From contig JAPLKB010000034.1 of NCBI GenBank assembly GCA_026388275.1, positions 1 to 64,000 on the forward strand: a stretch of 64,000 nt of DNA, given 5' to 3'. The stretch comes from Pseudomonadota bacterium (lineage in GTDB: Bacteria > Desulfobacterota > Syntrophorhabdia > Syntrophorhabdales > Syntrophorhabdaceae). Made by a program: the position numbers and the translations under genes. Under the pieces are notes generated by a model that was not told the DNA's origin, did not search any database, and saw only the letters and a program-made list of their open reading frames with translations. Shown here in pieces: positions 205 to 30,042 of this stretch (position 1 is its first letter; each line of letters begins with the position of its first letter).

Positions 205-900
205 ACCACGCAGTATGCACATTGGTACTGGTTTCGGGTCTGTTGATTCTGGTTTTCTTCTTTTGTATGCGGTGAGTTTTTTTCAAGTACTGCATTTGTT
301 ACAGGCGTCTCCATTATTTCATCAAATGTGGTAAAAAAGTCAGGAATTCAAAGGTTAGCGGCAAAGAGATATCCCTATGAAAAGGGGAGTTTTTCTGCCT
401 AAATTACATCCTGTATTTTCAAAACAGGTTTTAAAAGTGATATCGTGTTGAACAGCGTCTTTATTGATTTTCCAGAGATTTCCGAAATTGCTACAACAGT
501 TGTAGCAATTTCTTTCTGTAGGTTTTCAGGTATCCGATTGTAGTTTATCAACTCACTCATCACCCCATCCAGATTGTATCCCTTATCAGGATGTTTTGCT
601 TGAATAAAGGATAATATTCCTTTGGTCCGATCTATGGGATTCAAGTCTTCTCGTTGGAGGTTTTCTGTCAATTGGATGGCCAGTATTTCATCCTTTTGGG
701 TGACTATATTAACAATTCTTGCCGGGATGGATTCAAGGCCCAGCTTCTGAACTGCAAGATATCTTCTTTCCCCGCAGAGGAGAAGGTATTTATCTTTTTC
801 ATCAACGTTTGTTTCCTTGAGCAGTCCGCGAAGAGATGCCGTTATAGGAGGTGTTTTTTGGTATGGATTGTATCTGTATTAAGGATACGAAAATAATCGG
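205..900 (-). pseudogene. decayed parB-like gene, copy 1
   Basis: Minus-strand translation matches the intact ParB-like protein at 19630-20559 over most of its length. The ParB N-domain motif appears as YLLLCGERRYLA, followed by LTENLQREDLNPID, the GKSIKTLF helix-turn-helix segment, GYLFAANL and ETPVTNAVLE. It is broken by at least three in-frame stops between about 320 and 401 and by a frameshift or loss in the N-terminal part near 880. The open stretch at 399-671 is only a fragment. Bases 301-570 match a second relic at about 2484-2753 with 28 mismatches in 270 aligned positions, counted by eye. The perfect inverted repeat at 484-512 lies inside the former helix-turn-helix region. Confidence 0.85.
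484..512. repeat. perfect inverted repeat inside parB copy 1
   Basis: Two 14-base arms, GAAATTGCTACAAC and GTTGTAGCAATTTC, are separated by a single A. In the former reading frame it encodes EIATTVVAIS, just before the GKS of the helix-turn-helix. The same place in the other parB-like copies also holds an inverted repeat with different arm sequence. Confidence 0.9.
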
Positions 901-2425: not shown

Positions 2426-2758
2426 TCACACCTGCGGAACAGGTTTTTTAATCGGTTTTATTGGCGCAATCTCCGGGTTGGTTACAGGCGTCTCCATTAT
2501 TTCATCAAATATGGTAAAAAAGTCAGGACTTCCAAGGTTAGCGGCAAAGAGATATCCCTGTGAAAAGGGGAGTTTTTCTGTCTGAATTACATCTTGTATT
2601 TTCAAAACATGTTTTAAAAGTGATATCGTGCGATGCAGCGTCTGTATTTACTTTGCAGAGATTTCAGAAATCGTTACAACTGTTGTAACGATTTCTTTCT
2701 GTAGGTTTTCGGGTCTCCGATTGTAGCTTATCAACTCACTCATCACCCAGTCCAAGAT
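2426..2758 (-). pseudogene. truncated parB-like gene, copy 2
   Basis: Minus-strand translation gives VMSELISYNRRPENLQKE, then the helix-turn-helix segment with a TAA stop replacing the serine codon of GKSI, then an open tail ending near KKPVPQV with TGA at 2426-2428. The N-terminal two thirds are absent. Homology stops near 2758, where unrelated sequence begins. Over the shared part it is about 90% identical to copy 1 at the DNA level. It has the same orientation, so the two relics are direct repeats flanking the ATPase gene. Confidence 0.85.
2666..2696. repeat. perfect inverted repeat inside parB copy 2
   Basis: Fifteen-base arms AGAAATCGTTACAAC and GTTGTAACGATTTCT surround one T. Compared with copy 1, two positions differ in the left arm and the two partner positions in the right arm differ to match. 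It occupies the same codons (EIVTTVVTIS). Confidence 0.9.
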
Positions 2759-2834
2759 GAAAATAAATAAACCAAACAAATCATGATGATATGGTATTGT
2801 CAAAAGTTTCATGCACAATTAATATGAAGATTGA

Positions 2835-2995
2835 ACCTCCCCGCAGCAGGGTGCAGGTTATCACTGGGAAGAGGCTCATATCCCCCTCACCCCGCCCTCT
2901 CCCCCGGAGGGGCGAGGGCAAGTAGTAACCCTACAGCAAGCTTCAGGGCAAGTAGTAACCCTACAGCAAACTGCAGGGAATCATTTGGATTGAAT
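2835..2995 (+). repeat. dispersed repeat R1, copy a
   Basis: Contains CCCCGCAGCAGGGTGCAGG-like and CTCACCCCGCCCTCTCCC segments, followed by AAGTAGTAACCCTACAGCA hairpin units. Homologous copies are at 23258-23400 and 27041-27175. In this copy the second hairpin unit is tandemly duplicated with a period of about 28 bases. It carries no believable coding signal. Confidence 0.8.
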
Positions 2996-3075
2996 ATGGG
3001 CAGGACTCTACAAAGCAAAATAGAGGGTATGTAGAAAATAAAATTGAAAATGAAGAAACTTGCCCCCTTCTTTAT

Positions 3076-3262
3076 TCCGGCTTAGCATCAATGTAGATGC
3101 TAAGCCGGATTGAGTGGGCAGCGGCATGGCAGGGATGTTTCAGATTCGGATGGGCTGTTAGACTTGAAGGCCGTAGACGTACTCAACGTACGTCGGAGGA
3201 TCGCAAGTCGAAGCAGAGCGCCGAAGATGAACATCCCAATCATGCCGCTGACCGACCAAGTG
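3076..3262 (+). repeat. hairpin repeat R2, copy a
   Basis: Begins with a stem of two 14-base arms (TCCGGCTTAGCATC and GATGCTAAGCCGGA) around a 6-base loop, 3076-3109. After TTGAGTGGGC comes a long outer stem (GCGGCATG with CATGCCGC, GGATGTT with AACATCC). This encloses an inner hairpin, GACGTAC-TCAAC-GTACGTC. Copies b and c have the same layout with different, still matching, arm sequences. It lies downstream of the MOT1 transporter gene. Confidence 0.85.
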
Positions 3263-3336
3263 AAAAGACAGACAAAACTGCTTAAGATCCGGTCTGCTCA
3301 GTTACCAGGGAAAGAAGGGTAAATAAAACTTGCAGT

Positions 3337-4467: not shown

Positions 4468-4671
4468 AGAGCCTTTCCGCTAATCATCCTATGCCTGCTG
4501 TCAATGGGCACAGAGGAACATTTTTTCTCCATCACACAACATTAACATTCAAGAAAGAGCCGTTCAAGAAGAAAGATGAAAAGAAAAGGCACAAAAAGTA
4601 TATCAAAAATATCTTTAAGATATTATTATTGAAATTTAATTCAATGCATGATAAAGATTTCAACTAAGCAA

Positions 4672-4835
4672 TATTCGTCCGATTTGCAAGGGAAGTGAAG
4701 TGAAAATCTTCCACTGTCCCGCAACTGTGACGGGTTAAAGGCAACGCATGGCATATGCCGGCCACTGTCCTGAAAAAGGATGGGAAGGCGCGTAAGCTCA
4801 ACGCCCGGAAGTCAGGAAACCTTGGATTGGATGTC
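4672..4835 (+). ncRNA. cobalamin riboswitch
   Basis: The conserved features appear in order: GGGAAGTGAAGTGAAAATC, TCCCGCAACTGTGACGGG, the B12-box region GCCGGCCACTG, GGGAAGGCGCG and CGGAAGTCAGGA. It lies about 40 bases before the btuB start and should turn off the downstream locus when adenosylcobalamin is plentiful. It is a class I type by its elements. The exact ends are approximate. Confidence 0.95.
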
Positions 4836-4873
4836 TTAAGATACTGTCCTTACGAGGCATAAGGAGGTTACTC

Positions 4874-6790: not shown

Positions 6791-7733
6791 GAATATAACA
6801 TCACAGCTGAATAAAGTTTTCACCAATGCTGTTAAAAAGATAGCTGCACCCGGTATACTATTCTCAGGCGGGCTTGATACGAGCATCATCGCAGCCATTG
6901 CATGCCGTATATATGCACCATCTGAAGTTCAGGCTGTTACAATAAATCTTTTGTCTGAGGGTGAAGACCTCCAGTACTCAAAAGAGCTTGCACAGACTCT
7001 CCGATTCCATCATATTCAGAGATCGATAAGCATTGATGAAGCAATAGAGGCTATTCCCATTGTAATAAAAGCACTTGGGAGTTTCGATCCTGCAATACCG
7101 AATGATATTACAGCCTACTACGGTTTAAAGACCCTCTCCGGTATGGGCATCACTTCATTCATGACAGGAGACGGCGCAGACGAGCTTTTCGGCGGTTATG
7201 ATTTTATGAAGGAAATTGATGATTTACCCGGTTATATAAGAAGGATCGCTTCACACATGTCTTTCAGTTCCAATATGCTCGCCGATTTTCTGGCTATGGA
7301 CGTAAGGCAGCCCTTCCTTGATAAAAATGTAATCAAATTTGCCCTGGAAATACCGAATGAGTTAAGGATACGGGAAGAGCACGGGATAATCCACGGCAAA
7401 TGGGTTCTCAGAAAAGCCTTCGAAGACCTTCTCCCGTCCAAATTCATCTGGCAAGGCAAAAGGCCCCTTGAATACGGCTCCGGTATGACAAGACTCAGAG
7501 GCATCATATCTTCAATGATCAGCGACGAAGAGTTTCAAAATAATCCTTATCCTATAAGATTTTTTAACAAAGAACATTTCTATTATTTCAAGGTGTTTTG
7601 TGAGGTCGTCGGCACGATCCCGGGGCCGGAAGAAGGAGAAAAATCATGTCCGGGCTGCGGCGCCGGTATGCCGGTAGATTCCTTCCACTGCCATGTGTGC
7701 GGGCATGTACTGGAGTTGCTAAATGGGTCATGA
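6780..7733 (+). CDS. asparagine-synthase-like PP-loop ATPase with C-terminal zinc ribbon
   Basis: The protein matches only the synthetase half of asparagine synthetase: PP-loop LFSGGLDTSIIAA near residue 27, then MTGDGADELFGGYDF near 130. The N-terminal glutaminase domain is missing, so it would need free ammonia or another partner. The C-terminus has CPGCG and CHVCG pairs, a likely zinc ribbon. The TTG at 6780 is chosen because GGAGGG precedes it; it overlaps the end of btuB by 11 bases, so the two are translationally coupled. An ATG start at 6735 is also open but sits deeper in btuB. Its job in B12 uptake or salvage is unknown. It may adenylate and amidate a carboxylate. Confidence 0.85.
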   Translation: MTIENITSQLNKVFTNAVKKIAAPGILFSGGLDTSIIAAIACRIYAPSEVQAVTINLLSEGEDLQYSKELAQTLRFHHIQRSISIDEAIEAIPIVIKALGSFDPAIPNDITAYYGLKTLSGMGITSFMTGDGADELFGGYDFMKEIDDLPGYIRRIASHMSFSSNMLADFLAMDVRQPFLDKNVIKFALEIPNELRIREEHGIIHGKWVLRKAFEDLLPSKFIWQGKRPLEYGSGMTRLRGIISSMISDEEFQNNPYPIRFFNKEHFYYFKVFCEVVGTIPGPEEGEKSCPGCGAGMPVDSFHCHVCGHVLELLNGS

Positions 7734-7826
7734 AAAATGGGTGTAAAGTATGAGTAAAGAAAACTTGAACAATACAGAAAAATGTGGAGATAGGTAGTTT
7801 AAAATGAAGATATCTGTTTTTTTATT

Positions 7827-8020
7827 TCCGAATTCACATAAGCGTGTATGTGAATTCGGATTGAGTGGGCTGCGGCTTGTAAGAAATGATTCAGATGTGG
7901 ATGAGATGCAAGCCTTGCAGACCGGAGGCGTACTTAACGTACGTCGGAGGATCGCAAGGCGCAGCAGATCGCCGCAGATAAGCATTTCTTCCAAGCCGCT
8001 GACCGAACAAAGAAAAAACT
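7827..8020 (+). repeat. hairpin repeat R2, copy b, inside the B12 operon
   Basis: Starts with 14-base arms TCCGAATTCACATA and TATGTGAATTCGGA around a 6-base loop (7827-7860), then TTGAGTGGGC. The outer stem is GCGGCTTG/CAAGCCGC with AAGAAATG/CATTTCTT. A middle stem GCCTTGC/GCAAGGC encloses CGTAC-TTAAC-GTACG. It fills the gap between the PP-loop gene and the next gene (7734-8060), so it should be transcribed as part of the operon mRNA. Confidence 0.85.
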
Positions 8021-11909: not shown

Positions 11910-12004
11910 ATATTTTCATGAAATGGCTACAAAGATTGAATAATGATAAACCAGAGGCAGTGATCGAGAAGTATGGGAAATGAAGAAATCTTTTCTTCAT
12001 TTCC

Positions 12005-12218
12005 GCCGGATTCACATAAGCTTATATGTGAATCCGGCTTGAGTGGGCAGCGGCATGGAAGTGAGATTTCATTGCGAGGGCAGTGTTGAGCAAAAATGCA
12101 GCAGATGTGGATGAGATGTAAGCCTTGCAGGCCGCAATCGTACTGAATGTACGATGGAGGATCGCAAGGCGCAGCAGATCGCCGCAGATGAGTATTTCTT
12201 CCATGCCGCTGCCCGATA
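12005..12218 (+). repeat. hairpin repeat R2, copy c, inside the B12 operon
   Basis: Starts with 14-base arms GCCGGATTCACATA and TATGTGAATCCGGC around a 6-base loop (12005-12038), then TTGAGTGGGC. The outer stem is GGGCAGCGGCATGGAA pairing with TTCCATGCCGCTGCCC. The middle stem GCCTTGC/GCAAGGC encloses ATCGTAC-TGAAT-GTACGAT. It carries an extra stretch of roughly 20-30 bases in the left arm compared with copies a and b. It accounts for most of the gap between cobU and cobT. Confidence 0.85.
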
Positions 12219-12278
12219 AAGAGAAAAACCGGAAATGATATAACAAATACTCAACAAAACATAAGAGAGGCAAATTCG

Positions 12279-19222: not shown

Positions 19223-19629
19223 TTATTATTATCAAGGGTTTGTGGGTAATCGTTCAACAAGATTTTTTCTTTGGTGTCCGTATTGGTATCCACCATACCA
19301 TCTAACCTCTTTATTTCTTTCTGTTCAAAATCATCCGGTGAAACAACATAATATTTCATTGTGTCAAACCAAAATAGAAATGTCCTATCCTTACCAAAAT
19401 AGAAATGTTGTATGTTTCGTTTGCACATTTATTGAATTATTGAAACACATTCCCTCTTGCTAAATCCATCTACTGTTAGCTGCCTCTCCAGCTTCAAGAA
19501 TCCTGCATTTCCACTTCACACCAGTTTAATTTGCTTTTCAAATGTTTTCCCGCTTTTTTCATCATGTCCCGCATAAAGCGGGATTAAACCGTACACTATT
19601 CACCATTCACCATTCACTATTCACTATTT
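19223..19629. other. gene-free stretch with IS-like remnant and short tandem repeat
   Basis: CCAAAATAGAAATGT occurs twice within about 25 bases (19366-19410), a pattern I associate with insertion-sequence ends. An open frame on the minus strand starts MKYYVVSPDDFEQKEIKRL but runs into the tRNA, so it is not a whole gene. At 19601-19627 there is a degenerate 7-base tandem repeat (CACCATT/CACTATT). Confidence 0.5.
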
Positions 19630-20559
19630 TTATACTTGTGGTGGTCTTTTCTTGCCGTATGGGGTTATAAACATCTCCTGCTGGACATGATTACAGAAAA
19701 CCTGTAGTTCATAGAGATATTTTTCAACATCTTCCCTTATATAGGTTCCAATGCCTTTATCAAAATCTGTTTTTATGGATATAAGGCCTTTGACTTGTTT
19801 CTTAACGGATTTGGGCTTTGTATCAACAGGGGCAGGTTTGATTTTCTTGTACGCAGTAAGGATTCTTTCAAGTGTAGCATTGGTTACCGGTGTCTTTATG
19901 ACAGTATCGAATATATTCTTAAGATCGGGGCATTCGAGGTTTGCGGCAAAAAGATAACCCTGGGAAACAGGGAGATTTCCCGACCTGATTTCGGCTTGAA
20001 TTTCAGGAGAAAGTTTTAAAAGTGAAATTATGTTAAACAGCGTAGATATTGACTTTCCAGTGATTTCAATTATAACGCCAACTGTTGGCGTTAACTGGTT
20101 TGATATATCATCGGTTCTCAACTTGTATCTTACTAACTCACTCATGACTCCACCCACATCGTACCCTTTATCAGGATGTTTCGCCTGAATATATGTAAGA
20201 ATTCCTTTGGCCTGATCTATGGGATTTAAGTCTTCCCGCTGGAGGTTCTCAGTCAGTTGAAGGGCTATAGTGTCACCCAATTCCTTGCCTGCTTCAATAA
20301 CTCTCACCGGTACGGTTTCAAGTCCTAATTGCTTGGCTGCCACAAGACGTCTCTCTCCGCAGATAAGTAGATATGTCCCGTCATCCTGAGCTGTTACAAT
20401 GAGAGGTTCTAAGATACCTTTGTCTTTGATTGACTGCATAAGTGGCTTGAATGAGTCCGTTTCAATATTGATGCTTGATCTCACCTGTTCCATTACCACA
20501 ATCTTTTCTACGGGAATGTACAGAAACTCAGGATTTACAGTTGTTTTCTTTGTTGCCAT
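19630..20559 (-). CDS. ParB-like nuclease/partition domain protein, intact copy
   Basis: The 309-residue protein has an N-terminal ParB domain (EFLYIPVEKI, LICGERRLVAAKQLG, LTENLQREDLNPIDQAKGI) and then a helix-turn-helix (GKSISTLFNIISLL). An insertion of about 25 residues separates the first and second helices of the usual ParB DNA-binding fold. The codons of its last part (LTPTVGV) form a perfect inverted repeat. No parA lies beside it, so plasmid-type partition is unlikely; transcriptional control or an accessory DNA role is more plausible. The ATG at 20557-20559 follows GAGGGGGTAAT. Three decayed copies lie elsewhere in the window. Confidence 0.85.
   Translation of the reverse strand: MATKKTTVNPEFLYIPVEKIVVMEQVRSSINIETDSFKPLMQSIKDKGILEPLIVTAQDDGTYLLICGERRLVAAKQLGLETVPVRVIEAGKELGDTIALQLTENLQREDLNPIDQAKGILTYIQAKHPDKGYDVGGVMSELVRYKLRTDDISNQLTPTVGVIIEITGKSISTLFNIISLLKLSPEIQAEIRSGNLPVSQGYLFAANLECPDLKNIFDTVIKTPVTNATLERILTAYKKIKPAPVDTKPKSVKKQVKGLISIKTDFDKGIGTYIREDVEKYLYELQVFCNHVQQEMFITPYGKKRPPQV
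20073..20093. repeat. perfect inverted repeat inside the intact parB-like gene
   Basis: Ten-base arms TAACGCCAAC and GTTGGCGTTA flank a single T. The CAAC-N-GTTG core is shared with copies 1 and 2 while the outer arm bases differ. In frame it encodes LTPTVGV immediately before the helix-turn-helix. Confidence 0.92.
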
Positions 20560-29035: not shown

Positions 29036-29165
29036 AAGTTTTAAAAGTAAAATCGTGTGGAACTAAGAGGGTAAGCTTTTTCAGAAACTTCTATGATTGC
29101 ATCCCCGGTAGATGCAAATGTTTTTATCATGTCCCCCGGTTCCCGATTGTACATCATCAACATAA
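29036..29165 (-). pseudogene. parB-like relic, copy 3 (short)
   Basis: The minus strand reads MMYNREPGDMIKTFASTGDA then IIEVSEKA, aligning with the YNRRPENLQKE...EISGKS segment of the other copies. Flanking DNA such as GTTTTAAAAGTAAAATCGTG also matches GTTTTAAAAGTGATATCGTG of copies 1 and 2. Only the helix-turn-helix region survives, and it is more diverged. Confidence 0.65.
29097..29117. repeat. inverted repeat inside parB relic 3
   Basis: Seven-base arms TTGCATC and GATGCAA around a 7-base loop, at the same place as the inverted repeats of the other parB-like copies but with unrelated sequence. Confidence 0.75.
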
Positions 29166-29556
29166 AATCTTGTATCTACGAGAAGCGCTGTATCCAATTT
29201 GACAACTTATTTGCACGGACTATTATCATTCCCAATGATTGTCTGTCAAAAATAATGATCTTACATTTTTACTCCTAAATTGTAGGATTTTTAGACAACA
29301 TTTGTATAACATTTCCTACATACAAAAATAATACATTATTGTATATGGTAGAAATGATTTTATTCAAATTATTATTAACAGCTCTTGAAGCGTCTTTGCC
29401 ATATTTAGCGCTTGAGAAAAAATGGGGGTGGACCGGCAAACAGCAATCGAAATGATAAAAGCTGGCGTAGTATTGGGAACTTATTGAAATAGTTATAGCT
29501 GATGGAAAGAATTCGGCACTCCACATATCATCTAACATTATTTATGGGGGAAGCAT
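29166..29556. other. gene-free stretch
   Basis: AT-rich. Only short open frames without ribosome binding sites are present, and nothing recognisable is seen before the PEP-CTERM gene. Confidence 0.6.
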
Positions 29557-30042
29557 ATGAAGAAAAAGATTATATTAATGTGTTTAATTATCCTTATCAC
29601 CAGCCCTGTAGCCTTGTTGGCATATCAGACGCCGGAGCCGCCGTTTCAACCGGACTTTTATAACGAGTGGCGCTATTTGCCGACTAACACATATTTTGAT
29701 TTCGAACTTCAGAATATATATAACCCAGACGGTATAAAAACAGTCTGGTTTTATATGGAATCATCCGGTTCTGCTTTCATGAAAAGCGTTATCACCACTC
29801 CTGGAGGGATTGAACCGGAAACAATATTTGAAACATATGGCCCTGGAAGATACACCTGGATGTTCACACTTACTCCCCAACCTTCGTCAGAGATTGTGCA
29901 TATCTTTTTTGGGACAGAAACGATAGTAACCTATGCAGCCATGGCATCACATTGTAGTACAGTACCAATCCCCGGTGCTCTATGGCTTTTGGGCTCTGGT
30001 CTGGTAGGACTTGCAGGATTGAGGAGAAGATTCAAAAAATAA
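29557..30042 (+). CDS. PEP-CTERM-type exported protein
   Basis: 161 residues. A signal peptide (IILMCLIILITSPVALLA) is followed by a beta-rich body and the C-terminal sorting tail VPIPGALWLLGSGLVGLAGL, ending RRRFKK. This is the VPxPGAxWLLGSGL variant of the PEP-CTERM signal cut by an exosortase. The body shows no domain I recognise. No exosortase gene is in the window. Confidence 0.85.
   Translation: MKKKIILMCLIILITSPVALLAYQTPEPPFQPDFYNEWRYLPTNTYFDFELQNIYNPDGIKTVWFYMESSGSAFMKSVITTPGGIEPETIFETYGPGRYTWMFTLTPQPSSEIVHIFFGTETIVTYAAMASHCSTVPIPGALWLLGSGLVGLAGLRRRFKK

Follow-up and report, generated by a model that had tools for sequence, protein, structure and literature searches.

Palindromes in the helix-turn-helix codons of a multi-copy ParB-like gene family covary with the recognition helix and are predicted binding sites of the genes' own products

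KorB of plasmid RK2 is a ParB-family repressor with many dispersed operators. In the ParB-parS system of bacterial chromosomes, parS-359 of B. subtilis is located within parB (PMC4442127). In Caulobacter ParB, R173 and N178 contact parS, and positions 173 and 179 belong to four specificity positions; the paralogue Noc, which pairs with NBS, has a specificity shifted via recognition-helix positions 173/179 (PMC7383237). Orphan ParB-like proteins, which have the ParB-CTPase fold without a ParA partner and are often found on mobile elements, are surveyed in PMC12704722, in whose main text neither paralog families nor palindromes came up in a term search. No report of a family such as the one described here was found in the literature searched, most subscription journals lying outside its coverage, and nothing relevant was found on intragenic operators with co-diversified paralogues.

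The ParB-like family presented here resembles each of these systems in part. As in chromosomal ParB-parS, there is a ParB fold, a helix-turn-helix (HTH) predicted to read a short palindrome, and an in-gene site comparable to parS-359 of B. subtilis; however, the site shares sequence with the HTH codons, is odd-centred, varies from copy to copy and covaries with the recognition helix, and there are about 50 copies with no ParA partner. Positions 173/179 of Noc are equivalent to 193/199 of the present family, but Noc represents one switch, whereas many half-site classes occur here in one genome. KorB is a fold match to the intact protein studied here, P0001, but is a single gene with one operator sequence, whereas here both gene and site occur as paired variants. 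With the orphan proteins, the family shares the ParB-CTPase fold and the lack of a ParA partner.

The intact gene lies in the window, by which we mean the whole stretch of 64,000 nucleotides analysed, together with decayed or partial copies (Table 1). Its start is probably at position 20559, preceded by an AGGGGG ribosome-binding site, giving a product of 309 aa. The protein matched Pfam ParB_N (E 2.9e-14) and HTH_ParB (E 1.1e-6), both above cut-offs, and its fold matches in Foldseek were ParB, Noc and KorB. The CTP-binding motifs GERR and ENLQR, which together with the two domains place the family in ParB/Spo0J, are invariant or almost so in 51 intact copies. Judged from its HTH and its ParB_N fold, with the ParB CTPase-fold motifs GERR and ENLQRED, P0001 is predicted to be an orphan ParB-like factor. 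In an AlphaFold2 model (mean pLDDT 81) the HTH helices comprise residues 178-189 and 193-204, and the palindrome lies in the codons that open the helix at 178-189. In sequence alignment, residues 193, 194, 198 and 199 correspond to Caulobacter ParB 173, 174, 178 and 179.

Table 1. Coordinates of ParB-like copies and their palindromes in the window
Feature	Position	Strand	Remarks
Intact ParB-like gene P0001	19630..20625	(-)	Longest ORF, 331 aa
Palindrome of P0001 gene	20073..20093		TAACGCCAAC-T-GTTGGCGTTA, 10-base arms; proposed own-product binding site
P0001 recognition-helix codons	20014..20055	(-)	Residues 191-204, KSISTLFNIISLLK; model helix 193-204
Codons of residues 166-173	20107..20130	(-)	Covary, more weakly and with closer linkage, with bases -6 to -9 of the outer half-site
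Decayed parB copy 1	279..830	(-)	3 stops; perfect palindrome with 14-bp arms kept
Palindrome of copy 1	484..512		14-base arms, 1-nt centre
parB fragment copy 2	2447..2749	(-)	1 stop
Palindrome of copy 2	2666..2696		15-bp arms
parB remnant copy 4	29039..29170	(-)	About 130 bp; by direct reading FASTGDAIIEVSEKAYP, TCC-class type
Palindrome of copy 4	29097..29117		TTGCATC-CCCGGTA-GATGCAA; 7-base arms (offsets 4-10 paired), centre decayed

The first-pass annotation had placed an inverted repeat in each of the four ParB-like copies of the window. For copies 1 and 2 and the intact gene, the coordinates and arm lengths that it gave proved exact; the fourth repeat is present as well, with a decayed centre and inside a parB remnant, and copies 1 and 2 do differ by the paired arm changes that had been noticed. 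The palindrome and the HTH codons tend to be at the centre of short parB remnants, as seen in copies 2 and 4 and in L356-L358. Elsewhere in the window are high-copy intergenic repeats of about 250-450 bp that are common to many contigs (2832-3287, 7729-8020, 11968-12259), a cobalamin riboswitch (Rfam RF00174, 77 bits) at 4651-4842 upstream of a plus-strand gene run, and, by direct reading, a small secreted-looking ORF at 29557-30042 with a PEP-CTERM-like VPIPGALWLLGSG at its end.

Every fetched copy spanning the site was included; the 98 distinct copies so obtained come from six related genomes. All 98 hold an odd-centred palindrome at one position, the third base in the codon for T181, which lies 10 codons ahead of the GKS lysine, and the claim of an inverted repeat at one fixed site extends in this way far beyond the window. 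The refuting condition named at first pass, that most homologues would have no repeat here, did not hold within the family. Offset 2 was always A:T, offsets 2-10 were paired in 95-100% of copies, and offsets 3-9 were paired in 97-100%, compared to the 30-52% expected there with independently varying arms; several different pairs occurred at each of these offsets, and pairing was at background past about offset 12. The palindrome was perfect at offsets 2-10 in 83 of the 98 real copies but in only 1.75% of synonymous-codon shuffles that kept the protein. The symmetry is therefore not accounted for by constraint on the amino acids. One of the possibilities raised at first pass was an in-frame palindromic element inserted as in Rickettsia, which would agree with an in-frame palindrome in many gene copies. 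The palindrome stretch, however, corresponds in the alignment to ParB's first HTH helix, has the same length in every copy and has no empty allele among the family copies, and we consider such an insertion to have practically no likelihood.

The bases of the palindrome varied together with the residues of the recognition helix. At base -3, A occurred with Asn198 in 48 copies, C with Arg198 in 43 and G with Ser198 in 1, leaving 6 misfits among the 98; with the G/Ser copy included, exceptions to the base -3 rule amount to 7/98, and several of the misfits are decayed or broken genes. Base -5 was G with Arg or Lys194 in 53/53 cases, T mostly with Pro194, A with Met194, and C with Gln, Asn, Ser or Thr194. 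When half-site bases were compared with protein columns, mutual information was highest in the recognition helix, with 0.80 bits for base -3 and residue 198 and 1.18 bits for base -5 and residue 194, the latter residue also being associated with base -4. In a scan of protein columns, residue 198 ranked first for base -3, and 194 and 193 were among the top columns for base -5 that are not coded by the palindrome itself, as residues 180 and 183 are. Columns 187 and 189, which lie between palindrome and helix, carried little information, and simple linkage is therefore insufficient to explain the signal. Residues 193, 194, 198 and 199 covaried with the inner half-site. Residues 166-173 covaried with the outer bases -6 to -9, which could reflect a second contact or, in part, their closer linkage.

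Changes at both positions were also matched on a tree built from the protein without its HTH region. This tree requires base -3 to have changed at least 28 times, and residue 198 changed along in 14 of 15 well-supported independent pairs with 0 in the opposite direction (p 1.2e-4), while 10-11 of 11 base -5 pairs were matched by residue 194, although the copies are related and gene conversion of segments is possible, such that the tree may overstate the number of independent changes. The 12 copies that were fetched after the rules had been fixed all obeyed the base -3 and -5 rules and had 105/108 offsets paired; being homologues of the first set, they serve as a check rather than as a fully independent sample.

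Covariation of site bases with contact residues is what a protein-DNA recognition pair would display. The first-pass suggestion of an in-gene site bound by its own protein is strongly supported as a prediction, since the palindrome bases covary with residues that align to the DNA contacts of Caulobacter ParB. We put the probability at roughly 0.87 that the palindrome is a parS- or operator-like DNA site recognised by the product of the same gene, a prediction from sequence covariation. The symmetry might instead be mutational only, with arm-to-arm template switching equalising the arms without any selection for binding. A single switching event alters both arms, and the arms are perfect even in decayed copies; among those broken by stop codons, 20/23 palindromes were perfect. 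Template switching does not, however, predict that bases -3 and -5 match residues 198 and 194, nor that the same half-site vocabulary recurs outside genes. As a sole cause we regard it as very unlikely. It may act together with selection, and the part of this earlier proposal that stands is that switching could contribute to the equality of the arms; the match to helix residues lies beyond what it can account for.

Palindromes of the same type were also found outside parB genes. A search with a covariance model built on the palindrome returned 149 rows in the window's genome, most sites being entered once per strand. Row numbers were similar in the three other multi-copy genomes, and five relatives that lack the expansion gave 0-3. 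In 20 fetched regions, which were chosen for covariance-model hits, 59 palindromes lay outside parB pieces compared to 0.4 expected in shuffles. All but one of these (58/59) had an inner triplet among the 16, of 64, that are found in genes, and 37 matched the 7-bp half-site of some gene, where re-pairing of inner and outer parts would give 22. Some lie between genes in arrays of fixed spacing: one repeat family, present in about 10 copies, has three palindromes at 77 and 24 bp spacing, in which the scaffold is conserved and the palindromes vary, and a second has palindrome pairs 103 bp apart. Related genomes contained 19 outside sites with the same vocabulary; many more palindromes there lie within short remnants of parB that surround the site. 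Overlapping palindromes at 12 bp spacing share half-sites (L347 1812-1836; L343 2259-2271). Because palindromes occur outside genes and broken copies keep theirs, the sites are suggested to matter independently of the gene, although recent gene death could contribute.

Pfam searches of the array neighbours returned mixed functions, several restriction-modification genes among them, and no single target class. On contig C42, a type I restriction-modification operon is flanked on both sides by palindrome pairs (L184, 46943-56567); on C34, C26 and C56 there are restriction or methylase genes next to palindromes, and on C59 a Vsr gene. Near-canonical parS sites are present on contig C16 of the window's genome, separate from the palindromes, which are odd-centred and variable and do not qualify as canonical parS.

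A near-perfect inverted repeat within coding sequence, with paired changes, is also what would be expected if the palindrome folded in the transcript and controlled translation or stability, as the first-pass annotation had considered. In this case, however, the 1-nt centre leaves no proper RNA loop, cells of the G-U type are equal on both strands (TG 3 and CA 4, of 686), the same palindromes occur outside genes, and the recognition-helix match is left unexplained. Searches of five array loci gave no Rfam match. We give an mRNA hairpin very little credence.

The window's 3.5 Mb genome contains 53 matches to P0001, either copies or fragments, of which about 15 are full-length open frames and the others are either broken or partial. 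Among the weakest matches, a few are probably other ParBs. Many copies are present in three genomes of the same taxonomic family (G001, G007 and G016) and few in two others (G009 and G010), whereas the other searched members of the order are without the expansion. Between intact copies, with residues 151-204 excluded, median dN/dS was about 0.12, and synonymous change is far above amino-acid change, so the proteins are maintained.

The number of copies, the fragments often centred on the palindrome and the lack of a conserved partner gene (80 loci have only the parB-like gene in common) would be compatible with a palindrome that serves the multi-copy family for recombination or dispersal rather than as a regulatory site. 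However, the arms vary from copy to copy, which shared crossover sites do not, no common element ends were found in the flanks inspected, and no recombinase or transposase accompanies the parB-like gene in the 80 loci; we consider a recombination site unlikely. In the same 80 loci no parA was found adjoining the gene, as it would in a ParABS partition system. Many parB stop codons are followed by low-complexity GTGAATAGTGAATAGT tracts and by a repeat with ...CCCGCTTTATGCGGGACAT (e.g., window 19590-19630).

A divergent single-copy homologue in G032 (30% identity), the only one found there, has a palindrome with 10-bp arms 13 codons before the GKS lysine, of which the G032 genome contains no second exact copy. 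Since this homologue has a palindrome as well, the arrangement of gene plus palindrome is suggested to predate the expansion. Among profile-aligned phage and canonical ParB homologues, a palindrome near the matching place was found only in G032, besides the family members L193 and L200. Other palindromes scattered among these homologues look like chance.

If the palindrome is recognised by the product of its own gene, a dimer would place one HTH on each arm, with recognition-helix residues 193/194 and 198/199 reading bases around -5/-4 and -3 and residues 166-173 probably bearing on the outer bases. The site would travel with its reader in recombination and duplication, given the approximately 30 bp between it and the recognition-helix codons, and many specificities may coexist because the two move together as copies recombine or duplicate. 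Related palindromes outside genes would be further targets. The most likely working would be that the protein loads at palindromes and that loading at its own gene results in autoregulation or clamp loading; by analogy with plasmid ParB and KorB, the action is likely autoregulation or CTP-dependent loading. Binding, CTP dependence and a regulatory effect are what we infer for the family.

We see an even chance that these genes constitute a self-addressing family, in which dozens of paralogues encode their own palindrome in the HTH codons, specificity and site co-diversify, many distinct protein-site pairs are present per genome, and matching sites in genome-wide intergenic arrays form a combinatorial address or regulatory system. 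The family would be a natural record of a DNA-binding specificity and its target changing together, in dozens of variants with the site beside its reader. Ideas on the recognition code of ParB, on cross-talk among paralogues and on how new specificities arise would become directly testable, and the family may be a source of many distinct ParB-parS-like pairs for locus labelling.
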